A stretch of DNA of 64,000 bases, from NCBI RefSeq assembly GCF_026151205.1, contig NC_087081.1, positions 5,079,246-5,143,245 of the forward strand, given 5' to 3'. The stretch's first letter is position 1. Each line of letters starts with the position of its first letter. The stretch comes from Bolinopsis microptera. Taxonomy: Eukaryota > Ctenophora > Tentaculata > Lobata > Bolinopsidae. Of the stretch, positions 42,586 to 62,044 are shown one piece after another. The notes below the pieces were generated by a model. That model searched no databases. It was not told where the DNA came from and was given only the letters and a program-made list of their open reading frames with translations. Position numbers and translations under genes: made by a program.

Positions 42586-45500
42586 TCAGAAGTTACTTAT
42601 TTTCAGGTCATTGGGGTTGAAAATAATACTTTGCTCCTCCTCAAGTTCAGGGCACGCCCCTAGAGACCTCCGGGGATCCTCTATCACAACTAGCTTCATT
42701 GGTTTGCCTCGCGGACGAAAATGCCTTCTTTTTGGGGCGCCCTTAACTTTTGAATTGGCAGGTTGGTTCTCCGTTTCTAACTTGTTGGAACTTTTAGCTT
42801 TGTTGGCCGATTTACTGCTAGTAGCGGTAGTTGAAGGTGCGTTGTTTCTTTTGTATGGCATGACAAGTGGGGACGGAGGAGCTGACTTCATGGGGGTCGT
42901 GTTTGGGGAGGTACCCCCGGGACTCCTATCAAGACTTGACAGCTTCAGCTCCCTTGGTTGCAGTACTGCCAGAGACAGCCTCCTCTCAGTTTGAGGGGTC
43001 TTCTGGGACTTGGTTAGAACGGGAGAAGAGTGTTGCCTGGAGTGTGGTAATAATGTGGGTGGTTTGCTGCTCATTGGAATGGCCGCGATGGAATGCCGTT
43101 CCCGTTCTGAAGGGGCTGGTGGTGGTTTGCTTATCTCTTGACGGGGTCTTGGGAGGGATTTCATGCCTGTAGTCTGATTCTTAGGAGGATGACTGGTTTT
43201 TTCTCTACACTCAGAAGGAAAAGGCTCATTACCCTCACGTTCGTGAGGTACGAAGGGGTCCATTCTTAGTCTCAAACTCCGAGGTCGAGGGTACTGATGA
43301 CCAAAAGCGTTACTCATCTTTTTGTTAGCATGTTTACTTGTCTTAGGATAAGTTGGCTGTTCGGGACAATCCCTTTCAACAATGTCTATCTCACCCGATG
43401 ATTTCAACCGATCTAAAAAGTTCACCTTATCCATTTCCACGACCACTGTAGAACACGTTGAACCAAATGCCTCCTCGAATATAGCCTCCTCTGCGGACCT
43501 CATGGCTTCCAATTCCCTTGTCATCATACTCTGTCGCCTGTTTGCAGCAAACTCATGAATCTTATCAGTCAAAGAAAGCCGTTTCCCGTTGTCATCGACC
43601 CATAAACAAGAGGTAACTCTTTGTGGGGTGTGAGAAAACTGAATAATAACATCTGTGTACCTTATTTTTCTTCTCACCAGCCTATCATCATGATGATGAA
43701 AGTTACATTTCTCAACTGTAGACTTCCTCCAGGGTAACGCGCCCTTGAACCGTGAACCTTGAAAATAATAAACAACCGGATTGAGAATACAGTTGAGGAA
43801 GAGTAAAATAACGCTGGGAAGGAGGTAGATGTAGTGGTGGGAGAGGTGGTTCTCCCCTCCAAACAGTGAGAACAACAAGTTACACCTCACTACTCCCAGT
43901 ATTTCCAGGAGCTGTTCAAGAGCTACTGTCCAGTAGGATAGGTAACAGAGGACAAATGCGATGATAATTAGAATTAGAGTCTGGATCGCTGATCCTCTTG
44001 TTCGGGGTTGACCTGTGTGGAAAGAGAGTATTTGTTAATAGTTAGGCTGGAAATTTGGACTCCTTAAATTTGCTGCATTAACAAGGGAATAGTTCTATTT
44101 GTTTCATCATGGACATCTTTATGTTTCTAAGGAGTGGAATCAAAGAATTTGATTCGCTTTATAGCAACCACTCACGGCCAAAACCTTCTCTCAACATAGC
44201 CTTGACCTCCACCGTCCTTCCTATCTTTGTTTTCTCCAAACAGGTGCTTCTGGTTACTCTGTAGGGAGAGTGTAACCTTGAAATTCGACTAAATATTTAT
44301 TTCCTTGTGAGACGAAATTTAGTAAGCCTTTTAAAATACGATATAACCACTATTTTAGAAGTGTTAATTGAATTAACACTGGTAAATTATCCATGACTAA
44401 CTTTAGTCGACATACACTTGAAGTGGTGGAAACTGTATCATCTCTAATGTTAGAGGATGATACAGTTTGATACAGTTTGAAAAAAGGCAACATTTCCCCC
44501 TTTTCAGCCAATTTCGTGAAAGCAACAAAGCCAAAGATTTCATAATGAACCTGAGACAGCACTGATAAGACAGTGAATTAAGGTAGAGTTCGAGGATCAA
44601 AGCAAAGCTGGACAAGAAAGTGAAAGTTAAAGTGAAAGCTGGACAAGAAAATGAAAATGAAAGTAACAAAACCAAAGATACGGACCTGAGACAGCACTGA
44701 TAAGACAGTGAATTAAGGTAGAGTTTGAGGATCAAAACAAAGCTGGACAAGAAAGTGAAAGTGAAAGTGAAAGCTGGACAAGAAAATGAAAGTGAAAGTA
44801 ACAAAACCAAAGATACGGACCTGAGACAGCACTGATAAGACAGTGAATTAAGGTAGAGTTTGAGGATGACAACAAAGCTGGACAGGAAGATGATGATACC
44901 AGGCAGACAGATAGGGAGCACTACCAGGGCCACGTACAAGTAACCTATATGCTCCCCGTCATCTTGTGGCTGAAAGGAGTTAGTTTAACTATACCGATTC
45001 TTTTGGAGAAAAGTGCTGGATTTATCTGAATATAATTATACTCAACCTGAGTCTATTCGGAAAAAATTTAAATTGATCTTGAAAGATTCGTCAAATAAGA
45101 CTTAATAGCAATACAGAATTTAATCAGTTTAACTATTACTATCAATGAGTGATGTTATTTATAATGCCTTTACAAAGTATTATGAAGTTTGAAGTGGTAA
45201 TACTGATGATAAATCGATAATTCAGTTAGGAAGATAGAAATTTAGTGAGACTATGTATGTATAACGTATATCAATCACCTCGTATATTTCAGATAGTCGA
45301 TACTGACAAGAAGCCACGATCGGGATGTAGACGTACTCCTTCCCAAAGAAGAAAGGAATAATTGAGATTATTGCTGCTGCTAGCCAGCAAGTGGAGATTA
45401 TAATTTTGTTGTTCATCCTGCTCTTCCAACACTTCTTCATGAACGGGAAACCCATCACTAGAGCTCGAGTCACACTGAAATTGTTATGTTGTGAAACCCA

Positions 45501-47492
45501 TCACTAGAGCTCGAGTCACACTGAAATTGTTATGTTGTGAACCCCATCACTAGAGCTCGAGTCACACTGAAATTGTTATGTTGCAATTCTCAGTAATATT
45601 TAAACATACGAGGTACAACACTTTCCCTGATCGTCCATCATCAGTGTGTATAATACAAATCATTAAGTAATTACCAATAAAGATTACAGGTTAATTACGA
45701 ACAAATTACCGATACCTGATGTAGAGAATAAGGAACACACTGGTTCTTGAAGCCAAGTTGAAGACAACCCCGCTGACATTGCAGAGTAGCTTGTTCAGGA
45801 GATCTGTCTCGAACAATAACATCTCGCGCCTGTGGAATGAAGACATTAATCCGTGTATTACCCACTCACAGCACAGAAATAGCGAACCCAACCCACTCAC
45901 AGCACAGAAATAGCGAACCCAACCCCACTCACAGCACAGAAATAGCGAACCCAACCACTCACAGCACAGAAATAGCGAACCCAACCCACTCACAGCACAG
46001 AAATAGCGAACCCAACCCCTCACAGCACAGAAATAGCGAACCCAACCCACTCACAGCACAGAAATAGCGAACCCAACCACTCACAGCACAGAAATAGCGA
46101 ACCCAACCACTCACAGCACAGAAATAGCGAACCCAACCCACTCACAGCACAGAAATAGCGAACCCAACCCCTCACAGCACAGAAATAGCGAACCCAACCC
46201 CTCACAGCACAGAAATAGCGAACCCAACCCCTCACAGCACAGAAATAGCGAACCCAACCCCTCACAGCACAGAAATAGCGAACCCAACCCCTCACAGCAC
46301 AGAAATAGCCAACCCAACCACTCACAACACAGAAATAGCGAACCCAACCCCTCAAAAAAACAGTAGCAGTGATCCCAACCCCTCAAACAAAACAGCAGCA
46401 TTGAAACCTACCCGTTAAAAATGACAGCAGCATTGAAACCTACCCGTTAAAAAGAACAGCAGCAGTGAAAGGCATGACAAGAAGAGAAATAGAAAGATCG
46501 CAGATAGCCAGGTTGAGGAACACCACCACCACGCCCTGCTCATCTGCTCGGGTAGTTCGTGCACTTCTCATCCTCAGTACTCTTCGTATCACGTACACCT
46601 AGGAGAGTGGTGTAGTGGTGTAGTGGTGTAGTGGTGTAGTGGTGTAGTGGTGTAGTGGTGTAGTGGTGTAGTGGTGTAGTGGTGTAGTGGTGTAGTGGTG
46701 TAGTGGTGTAGTGGTGTAGTGGTGTAGTGGTGTAGTGGTGTAGTGGTGTAGTGGTGTAGTGGTGTAGTGGTGTAGTGGTGTAGTGGTGTAGTGGTGTAGT
46801 GGTGTAGTGGTGTAGTGGTGTAGTGGTGTAGTGGTGTAGTGGTGTAGTGGTGTAGTGGTGTAGTGGTGTAGTGGTGTAGTGGTGTAGTGGTGTAGTGGTG
46901 TAGTGGTGTAGTGGTGTAGTGGTGTAGTGGTGTAGTGGTGTAGTGGTGTAGTGGTGTAGTGGTGTAGTGGTGTAGTGGTGTAGTGGTGTAGTGGTGTAGT
47001 GGTGTAGTGGTGTAGTGGTGTAGTGGTGTAGTGGTGTAGTGGTGTAGTGGTGTAGTGGTGTAGTGGTGTAGTGGTGTAGTGGTGTAGTGGTGTAGTGGTG
47101 TAGTGGTGTAGTGGTGTAGTGGTGTAGTGGTGTAGTGGTGTAGTGGTGTAGTGGTGTAGTGGTGTAGTGGTGTAGTGGTGTAGTGGTGTAGTGGTGTAGT
47201 GGTGTAGTGGTGTAGTGGTGTCGTGGTGTAGTGGTGTTGTATGTGAGGAGTTTTTCCTATTAAATAAGATTCTTCGGTTTAATTTGTGTGTGCAGTATCA
47301 AACAATTTTCAATTTTTTTAAAAGTTGAAGGGTCATGACACTGATCCTTCAAGTGCCCAAAACTATGATGACCAGTATCAGTATGGGGTGTAAAAGTGTG
47401 ACTCACTGCGATGCAGTTGCCGATGATACCCAGTAGAGACAGACACGAGACTGCTACTCCCAACATTATATCCACCAACTCCGAGGAGATCA
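42586..47492 (-). CDS. Rhodopsin-class G-protein-coupled receptor with long C-terminal tail (seven exons; N-terminal exon not found)
   Basis: Plasma-membrane receptor, ligand unknown. Exons (minus): 47407-47492, 46444-46598, 45716-45829, 45279-45474, 44821-44969, 44176-44258, 42586-44012. All junctions are GT-AG and phase-matched, giving 736 visible residues. TM1 has GIIGNCIA (N1.50). TM2 has NLAICDL (D2.50). TM3 begins LLCNVSG (disulfide Cys), with its partner in ASCQYR after TM4 (CWLAAA). TM5 has LPICLPG. TM6 reads FVLCYLSYW, so CWxP is changed to CYLS. TM7 has NPVVYYF. The DRY position reads SVTRA. A tail of about 390 residues is Ser/Pro/Lys-rich and ends after a basic stretch (PKRRHFRPRGKP). 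Exon 1 starts in phase 1 after aacgtttcag, so the initiator lies in an unseen upstream exon or is split (A|TG). Borders of exons 2, 4 and 5 are tandemly duplicated (see findings). Orphan-like; subfamily not assignable. Confidence 0.9.
44550..44950. repeat. 135-bp unit, three copies, over the end of GPCR exon 5
   Basis: The block around cctgagacagcactgataag recurs at 44550, 44685 and 44820, an exact 135-bp period. Each copy contains the last part of TM5 (SF-ILKLYLNSLSYQCCLR on the minus strand), a donor GT, and a tract of gtgaaa/acaaga repeats. Confidence 0.95.
45451..45585. repeat. 46-bp unit, three copies, over the acceptor of GPCR exon 4
   Basis: cccatcactagagctcgagt followed by cacactgaaattgttatgtt occurs at 45451, 45497 and 45543 (46-bp steps). 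On the minus strand each unit carries the same tttcag acceptor and the first codons of exon 4. Confidence 0.97.
45865..46440. repeat. 30/32-bp minisatellite filling GPCR intron 2
   Basis: About 15 units of ctcacagcacagaaatagcg plus aacccaaccc (30 bp, variants 28-31). They grade, towards the exon at 46444, through two cctcaaa...cagcagca units into two 32-bp units (ttgaaacctacccgttaaaa...), the last of which overlaps the exon-2 donor. On the minus strand 30-bp units read WVRYFCAVS-like repeats, by composition only. Confidence 0.95.
46607..47237. repeat. 8-bp microsatellite (GTGGTGTA), about 79 units, in GPCR intron 1
   Basis: Nearly perfect gtggtgta; one gtggtgtc unit lies at the far end. It fills most of the 808-bp intron and ends only 8 bp from the acceptor of exon 2. 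Confidence 0.98.
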
Positions 47493-57281: not shown

Positions 57282-58148
57282 CTAAATATGTCTAACTAAG
57301 AATCTCCTAGAGTGCCTACATTTAGAAATAATTTCTGATCTTTTATTAATAATGCCTGGGGTTTTAAGTATGTATAGTTTCTCGTCTAAGCAGAGGCCAC
57401 AATGCCCCGCTCCAGCCTTATATTTCTTCGATTTAGTAATAATCTTCCAGTCTATGCTATATTCAATCATCTTCTCCTTGAGGTCCCATATCAATTTTGA
57501 TAACTCGGTACTCAGTCTGTGCTTAGAATTCTTAAAACTTTGTCGATGATTGTACCACCGTGTCTTAAAACTGTTTTCAGTCAATCCAATATAGGCCGTT
57601 TCCTTGTTAGATGCCGTTTTAACGGTTGCTTGGTATACTATGCATTTGGCTAGACATTGTCCTTTGAGGGGGCACTTCGAGGCGTCTCTGCAATTACACT
57701 CTTTTTCTGGAGCTTTTTTCTTTTCAGATTGTTTCTCTAGGACTGATTTGTTGTGCCCTTTGAGTATCCTTCCCAAACTGGGCATGCAGCAATAGCTTAT
57801 TTTCACGGTATTCCTATTGATGATTTTATGTAACGGTAGGTTTTTCGGGAAATGCTTATCGATAAGAGCGAAGAACTTTCTTCCGATGTTGGTTGAAACG
57901 TTTGCACTGAATGGGGGATTGTACCATAGGATGTTCCTCTTCCGCGATCTCTTTCTCATTTTAGGCGGTGGTGTTTTATAATCGATGGTGTGACTATATC
58001 CGCTATCTCTAAGTGCCTTCTCATAATCGCTTTTGGCTTCATTTAGGCATGTCTTGTTGCTGGATATGCTTATCAATCGTGATTCTATCATTGAGGGTAA
58101 GTTCTTCAATATGATGGGAGGATGATTGGATTCTGCGTTAATGTACAA
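57282..58148 (-). CDS. C-terminal part of a Penelope-like element protein with GIY-YIG endonuclease
   Basis: Open frame of 288 codons; in the intact family it would be the tail of a reverse-transcriptase polyprotein. The N-terminal part carries the linker conserved in such proteins (SNHPPIILKNLPSMIESRL; RKRNILWYNPPFSANVSTNI; HKIINRNTVKISYCCMPSL). From about residue 150 comes a Cys cluster (CNCRDASKCPLKGQC). The GIY-YIG nuclease follows: IVYQATV, then AYIGLTENSFKTRWYNH with the catalytic-type Arg and His, and the Glu in TELSKLIWDLKE. A second Cys pair (HCGLCLDEK) and a basic end (SKCRHSRRF) close it. The nuclease nicks target DNA during insertion in this family. The first codon of the frame is probably not a true start, because related linker sequence (DKSYRPYRKPNDTPL) lies just upstream, split from this frame. 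The fragment is likely inactive because the RT domain is missing. Confidence 0.85.
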   Translation of the reverse strand: MYINAESNHPPIILKNLPSMIESRLISISSNKTCLNEAKSDYEKALRDSGYSHTIDYKTPPPKMRKRSRKRNILWYNPPFSANVSTNIGRKFFALIDKHFPKNLPLHKIINRNTVKISYCCMPSLGRILKGHNKSVLEKQSEKKKAPEKECNCRDASKCPLKGQCLAKCIVYQATVKTASNKETAYIGLTENSFKTRWYNHRQSFKNSKHRLSTELSKLIWDLKEKMIEYSIDWKIITKSKKYKAGAGHCGLCLDEKLYILKTPGIINKRSEIISKCRHSRRFLVRHI

Positions 58149-58864: not shown

Positions 58865-60533
58865 GTTTTGTTCGGCTGCAAAAACACATACTCATTTGCA
58901 ATTTTTAATACGTTTGTTTAAATTCGGTTTCACTAATTCACTCGCCATGGATTATAGGAAACGCGCGATATTTTGTTTTCGCATTGGATATAAAGATGAC
59001 CAATGATATTGCAGTGTTTAAGTCACGTGCGCGTGATATAGCGCGCTGGCGTGTGATTGAGATCAGATACAAACTTTTGTTCTTTCCTCTTTTTCACTGC
59101 CTTCTGATAAACCTATCGCCTGCAGTTTGTTGAATATCTCTGTCATCTGTCATTTGCCTTAAAGTGATACCCTTATCGTAAGCTTTTTTTAATGGTTTCA
59201 ATGTCATGAGAGCTACATGCATCCAAGAAAAATGTATGATTTTAGTACTTTTCTATGTGGCACTGTTTACTGTTTCGTATTTTGCATTGTCGACCAGGAC
59301 GAAAACCAATGTAACACCGAGTTGTAAACCTGACTAGAAAACATAATTAAAGAAAGTACCGCAACCTCGCACGTTAATGTTTAATTTTGAACCTTAAAAC
59401 TATTGAAAAGTTTAGAATCATTGCAGCCATTTCTACTGTCATTATGCGACCAACTCTTTAGTCCCACTAGTCGACTAGTATTATTCAATTTTAATAGTGT
59501 GGTGTGCCCTAATTCATGAGGAAGTAGCCAGCTGATATTATGAAATCGTGTTACGGTTATACTTGAGTGTATTATTAAAGCATGAGTTAAATATTTTGTG
59601 AACATATATTTTTATTTTGTAATACTCATACTCATACTCATACAGTAGCCCTTAACTTGTATTGATAGATTGTATAATTGATCTGTTCAGTCGTTTATTC
59701 TTAGTCATTCATTCTCAGTGTGTCGTGTTTACAAACAAAATCTTGATTGAGTATGTATTTGGGAGTTCGTTGTCTGTCTGTTCAGTTTCGGATATGAATC
59801 TGTAGTCTTGTTTCAGACTGGTGAGGATGTTAAACATTTTGTGACTTTATCCACCACTTCCACTCGATCGGAGTTAAAAGATGTAGGACCTCCCTCCCTC
59901 CCTCCCTCCCTCCCTCCCTCCCTCCCTCCCTCCCTCCCTCCCTGCCTCCCTCCCTCCCTGCCTCCCTCCCTCCCTCCCTCCCTCCCTCCCTCCCTCCCTC
60001 CCTCCCTCCCTCCCTCCCTCCCTCCCTCCCTCCCTCCCTCCCTCCCTCCCTCCCTCCCTCCCTCCCTCCCTCCCTCCCTCCCTCCCTCCCTCCCTCCCTC
60101 CCTCCCTCCCTCCCTCCCTCCCTCCCTCCCTCCCTCCCTCCCTCCCTCCCTCCCTCCCTCCCTCCCTCCCTCCCTCCCTCCCTCCCTCCCTCCCTCCCTC
60201 CCTCCCTCCCTCCCTCCCTCCCTCCTCCCTCCCTCCCTCCCTCCCTCCCTCCCTCCCTCCCTCCCTCCCTCCCTCCCTCCCTCCCTCCCTCCCTCCCTCC
60301 CTCCCTCCCTCCCTCCCTCCCTCCCTCCCTCCCTCCCTCCTTCCCTCCTTCCCTCATTCCCTCCTTCCCTCCATCCCTCTGGTTCCATGATCGGGACGCA
60401 ACCTTACTTGAATGGTATTTGGAGATATATCTCTAGGATAATCTTGGTTTAAGCTTTTTGATGTGTAATACATAGATTCGGGTGTAGGAACCAAGGCTCC
60501 TATTTGTTCTTTTAGAGCTCCACATTTGGAAAT
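58865..60533. repeat. Segmental tandem duplication, copy 1 (1669 bp)
   Basis: Begins gttttgttcggctgcaaaaa and ends ccacatttggaaat. Copy 2 follows without any spacer. It contains a 74-codon minus-strand ORF (59381-59605) with no recognised domain. Confidence 0.97.
59889..60377. repeat. (CCCT)n array, copy 1
   Basis: About 490 bp of ccct with two cctgcctc units, one cctcctccc slip, and a degenerate cttccctcatt tail. Read in frame it gives (PPSL)n on one strand and (GREG)n on the other; neither is a gene. Confidence 0.97.
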
Positions 60534-62044
60534 GTTTTGTTCGGCTGCAAAAACACATACTCATTTGCAATTTTTAATACGTTTGTTTAAATTCGGTTTC
60601 ACTAATTCACTCGCCATGGATTATAGGAAACGCGCGCTATTTTGTTTTCGCATTGGATATAAAGATGACCAATGATATTGCAGTGTTTAAGTCACGTGCG
60701 CGTGATATAGCGCGCTGGCGTGTGATTGAGATCAGATACAAACTTTTGTTCTTTCCTCTTTTTCACTGCCTTCTGATAAACCTATCGCCTGCAGTTTGTT
60801 GAATATCTCTGTCATCTGTCATTTGCCTTAAAGTGATACCCTTATCGTAAGCTTTTTTTTAATGGTTTCAATGTCATGAGAGCTACATGCATCCAAGAAA
60901 AATGTATGATTTTAGTACTTTTCTATGTGGCACTGTTTACTGTTTCGTATTTTGCATTGTCGACCAGGACGAAAACCAATGTAACACCGAGTTGTAAACC
61001 TGACTAGAAAACATAATTAAAGAAAGTACCGCAACCTCGCACGTTAATGTTTAATTTTGAACCTTAAAACTATTGAAAAGTTTAGAATCATTGCAGCCAT
61101 TTCTACTGTCATTATGCGACCAACTCTTTAGTCCCACTAGTCGACTAGTATTATTCAATTTTAATAGTGTGGTGTGCCCTAATTCATGAGGAAGTAGCCA
61201 GCTGATATTATGAAATCGTGTTACGGTTATACTTGAGTGTATTATTAAAGCATGAGTTAAATATTTTGTGAACATATATTTTTATTTTGTAATACTCATA
61301 CTCATACTCATACAGTAGCCCTTAACTTGTATTGATAGATTGTATAATTGATCTGTTCAGTCGTTTATTCTTAGTCATTCATTCTCAGTGTGTCGTGTTT
61401 ACAAACAAAATCTTGATTGAGTATGTATTTGGGAGTTCGTTGTCTGTCTGTTCAGTTTCGGATATGAATCTGTAGTCTTGTTTCAGACTGGTGAGGATGT
61501 TAAACATTTTGTGACTTTATCCACCACTTCCACTCGATCGGAGTTAAAAGATGTAGGACCTCCCTCCCTCCCTCCCTCCCTCCCTCCCTCCCTCCCTCCC
61601 TCCCTCCCTCCCTCCCTCCCTCCCTCCCTCCCTCCCTCCCTCCCTCCCTCCCTCCCTCCCTCCCTCCCTCCCTCCCTCCCTCCCTCCCTCCCTCCCTCCC
61701 TCCCTCCCTCCCTCCCTCCCTCCCTCCCTCCCTCCCTCCCTCCCTCCCTCCCTCCCTCCCTCCCTCCCTCCCTCCCTCCCTCCCTCCCTCCCTCCCTCCC
61801 TCCCTCCCTCCCTCCCTCCCTCCCTCCCTCCCTCCCTCCCTCCCTCCCTCCTTCCCTCCTTCCCTCATTCCCTCCTTCCCTCCATCCCTCTGGTTCCATG
61901 ATCGGGACGCAACCTTACTTGAATGGTATTTGGAGATATATCTCTAGGATAATCTTGGTTTAAGCTTTTTGATGTGTAATACATAGATTCGGGTGTAGGA
62001 ACCAAGGCTCCTATTTGTTCTTTTAGAGCTCCACATTTGGAAAT
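60534..62044. repeat. Segmental tandem duplication, copy 2 (about 1511 bp)
   Basis: Outside the CCCT array I see only two differences from copy 1: gcgcgcta for gcgcgata near 60638, and one extra T in a T-run near 60858. The same 74-codon ORF recurs unchanged at 61051-61275. Confidence 0.97.
61559..61888. repeat. (CCCT)n array, copy 2
   Basis: About 330 bp, roughly 160 bp shorter than copy 1 and without its internal interruptions, but with the same degenerate tail. Confidence 0.97.

Follow-up and report, generated by a model that had tools for sequence, protein, structure and literature searches.

Tandem repeats that span exon-intron borders have been described in amphioxus, where they are known as 'mirages' and have been found in Adh3, in the globin genes BflGb6 and BflGb9, in TnC and in PGBD5 (PMC3087553, PMC3902484). 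According to the portions of these reports considered here, mirages lie at 5' or 3' borders, are composed of units of 10–160 bp, are unstable in length and have homogenized inner units and diverging edges; they are reported to leave normal splicing undisturbed (PMC3087553, PMC3902484). Duplication at splice sites also figures in the Rogers model, as outlined in the part of the work used here, in which introns are gained by tandem genomic duplication of a segment containing AGGT (PMC3443670), and in human segmental-duplication genes, where internal tandem repeats at exon-intron borders are described, in the part of the report drawn on here, as altering splicing and introns (PMC2812944). A limited literature search, judged by title, yielded no report of tandem border repeats in ctenophores, and all the mirages in print that it found are from lancelets.

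We have analysed a stretch of 64,000 nucleotides from the ctenophore Bolinopsis microptera (hereafter the window), in which a receptor gene on the minus strand carries a tandem repeat at the border of exon 2 and intron 2. This repeat is probably a mature mirage that has grown from the exon border. A preliminary description of the same DNA had seen the repeat, and the observation is real, but two further repeated borders of the gene (one of them provisional) and the existing name for such structures had been missed.

The receptor gene and the repeat at its exon 2 border

The five joined exons of the gene match the Pfam profile 7tm_1 (E 4.5e-15, 56.3 bits against a cut-off of 30.5, profile positions 1–181 of 260). 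Exons 1–4 join in a single frame, and the gene model, from which the N-terminal end was left out, is sound there; the last exon matches the C-terminal part of the same profile at 21.2 bits, below the cut-off. Judged by its predicted protein, the host gene is a class A (rhodopsin) GPCR and exon 2 is truly coding. The 8-bp array of intron 1, which also lies close to exon 2, was considered as a border repeat and rejected, being a dispersed satellite: TACACCAC arrays occur on other contigs too (C6, C5, C2 and more).

Table 1. Features of the receptor gene and its repeats, in window positions (a slash marks the exon-intron border)
Feature	Position	Strand	Details
Last exon, TM6–TM7 and long C-terminal tail	42589..44012	-	ORF; acceptor
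Third border repeat (provisional), 135 bp x 2.5, over the TM5-coding end of exon 5 and CAG/GTCCGT	44549..44888	-	TRF; frame
Second border repeat, 46 bp x 3, over exon-4 acceptor	45447..45583	-	TRF
Intron 2, non-repeat 3' end and acceptor TTCCACAG/GCGCGAG	45830..45859	-	
Units 4–19, homogeneous 30–32 bp minisatellite	45860..46340	-	TRF 16.2 copies, 96% matches; single genome place
Units 2–3, diverged copies, 32 and 31 bp	46341..46403	-	75% identity with unit 0; p 0.0002 in both cases
Unit 1, 29/32 copy of unit 0	46404..46435	-	identical donor 9-mer; decoy GT at 46411
Unit 0, exon-2 end and true donor CGG/GTAGGT	46436..46467	-	intron start 46443; predicted U1 duplex -10.6 kcal/mol
Exon 2, TM1 end to TM2 end	46444..46598	-	155 nt; frame and splice sites
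Intron 1, 79-copy 8-bp satellite (TACACCAC)	46606..47237	-	ends 7 nt before exon-2 acceptor

The last 24 coding nucleotides of exon 2 and the first 8 of intron 2 form what is here called unit 0, and on the minus strand the exon end reads ...CACTGCTGCTGTTCTTTTTAACGG/GTAGGTTT. Unit 1 directly adjoins it, with three changes in 32 bases and an unchanged donor 9-mer, and is followed by units 2 and 3; the immediate 32-bp copy and the more diverged copies beyond it had both been recognized in the preliminary description and are borne out here. Unit 0 aligned with each of units 1, 2 and 3 better than with any of 5000 dinucleotide shuffles (p 0.0002 in each case), which rules out chance similarity for units 0–3; on these alignments, which show likeness over the full unit, their descent from the exon border is clear. 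Beyond them lie 16 near-identical units (units 4–19), the last of which is truncated beyond its GGGT, in donor register. The homogeneous array of some 15 units of 30 bp that had been proposed thus stands, although with a count of 16, a unit length of 30–32 bp and a truncated last unit. Intron 2 is 614 nt long, and repeats account for about 584 nt of it (about 95%). Without its array the intron would be about 38 nt long, which is perhaps too short, so that something else may have been lost.

When the 264.65 Mb genome (232 contigs) was searched with the array DNA, by a method that passes over simple repeats and words of very high frequency, the only match was the locus itself, which is therefore found as a single copy in the assembly. 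Because the array DNA matched nowhere else, the array was probably born locally, and insertion of a dispersed satellite was rejected on the same ground.

The similarity of the array to the exon border was graded. Unit 0 against a homogeneous unit (unit 12) gave a borderline result (p 0.05, dinucleotide shuffles), and with mononucleotide shuffles the whole array unit gave p 0.001 against unit 0 and p 2.5e-4 against unit 2. Divided into halves, the array unit resembled the exon series in its 3' half (p 3e-4 against unit 3, 8e-4 against unit 2 and 0.018 against unit 0) and not significantly in its 5' half (p 0.12 against unit 0, 0.28 against unit 2 and 0.29 against unit 3); the homogeneous units are thus linked to the exon series only via unit 3, with significance confined to the 3' half of the unit. 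A tree of the units had been proposed as a test of a border origin, and its outcome is divided: the exon end groups with units 1–3 (support 0.994 for this split, but only 0.154 for a pair of exon end and unit 1), whereas the 16 homogeneous units are all set apart from units 0–3 by the longest branch of the tree (support 0.994). Taking the shuffle p values, the half-unit tests and the tree split together, we consider descent from the border clear for the first copies and, on these alignments, likely for the whole homogeneous array. Of the earlier claim that the repeat descends from the exon-intron border, what holds in full is the part concerning units 0–3, a graded series in donor register, whereas in the homogeneous array only half of each unit shows a significant relationship; in the same way, the evidence for growth of the intron by copying of its own 5' splice site is good where the first copies are concerned and weaker for the array as a whole.

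A comparison with the nearest paralogue found for exon 2 (locus L039, C6:16897845-16897949, 51% identity over 35 residues) bears on which came first. This locus encodes PFTALMLFSGRV where the receptor gene has PFTAAVLFNG followed by RE, so that the exon end PFTAAVLFNG and the paralogous PFTALMLFSG follow a common pattern, PFTAxxLFxG. None of the three tandem repeats at L039 with a period of 10 or more touches the corresponding border. Since L039 encodes a similar end and has no repeat at that border, the coding end of exon 2 is probably older than the array. The L039 exon-end DNA also scores best with unit 0 (14 of 23 positions identical) and worst with the array unit, the differences being small (scores 3.0 to 6.0).

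Splice sites within the repeats, in this gene and at other loci

The true donor and the donor of unit 1 tie in a simple predicted U1 duplex, and the next best predicted site in exon 2 and intron 2 reaches -6.3. The donor 9-mer, identical in units 0 and 1, is degenerate in later units. GTGAGT, which had been said to occur in many units, is present in 10 of the 20, each time preceded by T and with weak predicted U1 pairing (-5.0). We read all 44 downstream GT sites with a predicted U1 energy of -4.0 or better, and all 44 meet a stop, the 81st codon of the partial reading, which sits just past the end of exon 2; the frame is open only from the exon-side donor. The statement that a reading continued beyond the true donor runs straight into TAG is therefore correct for every site read, and by reading frame, on paper, the spare donor would yield truncated protein only, as had been suggested.

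Splice-border repeats are more general in this gene than exon 2 alone, as they occur at two further borders, one of them provisional (Table 1). At exon 4 the acceptor octamer is identical in three copies. Decoy acceptors open at 45566 and 45520, and from either of them the partial reading stops at its 130th codon; the copy that adjoins the true exon 4 (start 45474), the last of the three, meets no stop and gives an open frame. The junction of exons 5 and 6 does not close, the donors being of phase 2 and the acceptor requiring phase 1, and because these phases do not fit we treat the exon-5 border repeat as provisional. Its 135-bp copies are all open in frame; spliced from a later donor, the protein would gain repeats of half a transmembrane helix, 45 residues each. 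With this provisional border included, 3 of the 10 borders of the gene lie in tandem repeats. As tandem repeats make up 12–21% of the window, some such matches are expected, and the case for an enrichment of repeats at this gene's borders varies with the measure used: when the border pattern was slid over the window, P was 0.15–0.29 if borders within repeats were counted and 0.004–0.024 if distinct arrays hit were counted. The sliding test placed the exon-6 acceptor about 10 nt off, and there is no repeat near that acceptor. Elsewhere in the window, on the minus strand, a 288-aa ORF (57285–58148) had no Pfam match at E 0.01 and by eye resembles the GIY-YIG end of a Penelope-like retroelement; further on, the same 76-aa ORF occurs twice (59384–59611 and 61054–61281), about 1.67 kb apart, its copies flanking a CCTC array at 59889–60379.

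Nineteen other GPCR-like loci were scanned by TRF (two of these, L026 and L054, are one place). Between their coding blocks we count 16 gaps, not all of them necessarily introns, and a border duplication is present in one: at L028, a 24-bp stretch of exon end and donor stands twice, keeping the frame and allowing eight more residues. In L033 and L052, the repeats close to the ends of coding blocks were judged by eye not to be border duplications. The donor and acceptor of the L028 intron (minus strand, 1452–1243 of G000:C6:4805345-4808704) share CTTACACYCAGGTR. The contexts of its first donor and of its acceptor agree at 13 of 20 positions (AG/GT unscored; p 5e-4, one of seven comparisons), and the intron may be a candidate for birth by tandem duplication, which we offer as a lead only.

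A second set comprised 38 loci (30 kinase and 8 glutamate receptor), which were chosen by best match and so were mostly matched in one uninterrupted frame. A plus-strand ORF was read at 20 of the 38 and none at the other 18; in 3 of these 20 a short repeat (10–15 bp unit) touches the ORF, in one case at the ORF end (L058). Two glutamate receptors of this genome have as their best solved relatives chains of ML032222a, which we take to be a Mnemiopsis leidyi gene and whose closest copy in the genome is 81% identical over 111 residues. On contig C3 nearly the same stretch of the myosin-head profile was matched twice, at G000:C3:9154012-9154203 (profile 105–167) and 9154255-9154485 (profile 102–167), about 240 bp apart within one 1218-aa open frame; this may be an exon duplicated in tandem or a further border repeat.

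Origin of the repeat and competing explanations

Our preferred explanation begins with tandem duplication, by slippage or unequal exchange, of the 32-bp stretch across the donor, which would place a second donor just downstream and give the order exon end, donor, exon end, donor. Were the exon-side donor used, the protein would be unchanged and the added copy would become intron, at little cost; the extra copy would thus be nearly neutral, because exon-side splicing leaves the protein as it was. Further rounds could then expand the copies as in any minisatellite, with homogenization of the inner units, until the repeat occupied some 95% of intron 2. At an acceptor the mirror case would apply and the last copy would have to be used, as in the exon-4 array. 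On the best reading, the mirage would be silent because the exon-side site would be the one retained in splicing.

The relationship between units 0–3 and the array could instead reflect two origins, the first copies deriving from the border and the 30-bp array being an independent minisatellite that ran into, or took up, half a unit (GAGGGGTTGGGTT) at unit 3. TRF indeed splits the region at about 46340–46354, in line with the strongly supported division of the unit tree, and the restriction of significance to the 3' half of the unit and the borderline comparison of unit 0 with unit 12 fit such a junction. However, the two parts have a similar period and no gap between them, the full units align in donor register, unit 2 resembles the whole array unit well beyond mononucleotide shuffles, and no second genome copy of the array was found, and we regard two origins as unlikely. 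That growth ran from exon to intron we infer from the paralogue and from the order of the units. For the opposite course, an intronic repeat into which the exon-2 end and its donor later slid, it can be said that the intron of L039, read by eye, lies about 7 nt away from the position of intron 2, so that in one gene or the other the border may have shifted; but the exon end encodes a paralogue-like stretch and the exon copy is an end unit rather than an inner one, which makes this course very improbable.

Nor do we favour the idea that decoy donors and acceptors are kept as regulated poison sites, tuning receptor output via stop-containing mRNA. It would draw on the equality of decoy and true donor in predicted U1 pairing (-10.6, against -6.3 for the next best site) and on the stops to which the decoy donors (81st codon) and the exon-4 decoy acceptors (130th) lead in the partial reading. 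On the other side, the L028 decoy stays in frame, and amphioxus mirages are reported, in the portions of the work cited, not to disturb splicing (PMC3087553, PMC3902484); we give this idea hardly any credence.

A mirage grown from the exon border, with splicing that would prefer exon-side sites, invites a broader proposal, which we make tentatively and think rather doubtful as yet: border-seeded tandem duplication may be a common and ongoing means of intron lengthening in ctenophores, each duplicate being silenced by exon-side splice choice, so that an intron would be assembled from copies of its own splice sites, and some of the duplicated pairs would give rise to new introns. The ctenophore mirages, two or three in one gene and one in another, suggest a general route of intron growth in minisatellite-rich animal genomes, and such loci lend themselves as natural tests of how several equal splice sites compete when only one of them keeps the frame.

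Comparison with known border repeats and intron gain

Three of the described traits of mirages are found here. Units span an exon-intron border securely at the exon-2 donor and exon-4 acceptor, and provisionally at the exon-5 donor; the copies carry splice signals (the donor 9-mer in units 0 and 1, the acceptor octamer three times); and inner units are homogenized (units 4–19) and edge units diverged (units 1–3), although at the far edge of the array the last unit is cut, not diverged. As far as the cited parts of the amphioxus reports go (PMC3087553, PMC3902484), the likeness therefore extends to tandem, minisatellite-like, border-spanning repeats with splice signals in their copies and to homogenization of inner but not edge units, whereas the ctenophore host, the two or three repeated borders in one gene and an array that forms nearly the whole intron are points of difference. 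The human repeats share the location at exon-intron borders; those repeats belong to recent paralogues with RNA evidence, and the part of the report drawn on here describes no exon-seeded mature minisatellite (PMC2812944). Intron gain under the Rogers model, as outlined in the part used here (PMC3443670), likewise rests on a tandem duplication that copies splice-like sequence, but here an existing intron grows and its acceptor side is unlike its donor side. Indeed, the donor and acceptor contexts of intron 2 match at 7 of 20 positions (p 0.45; the other four introns, p 0.48–0.80), and birth of intron 2 by AGGT duplication was rejected on this count; the L028 intron, with its 13 matches of 20 (p 5e-4), may fit that model (PMC3443670). 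The exon-2 repeat is thus of a known kind, and what is new is its host phylum, the clustering of such repeats in one gene and an intron that the repeat has almost entirely taken over.
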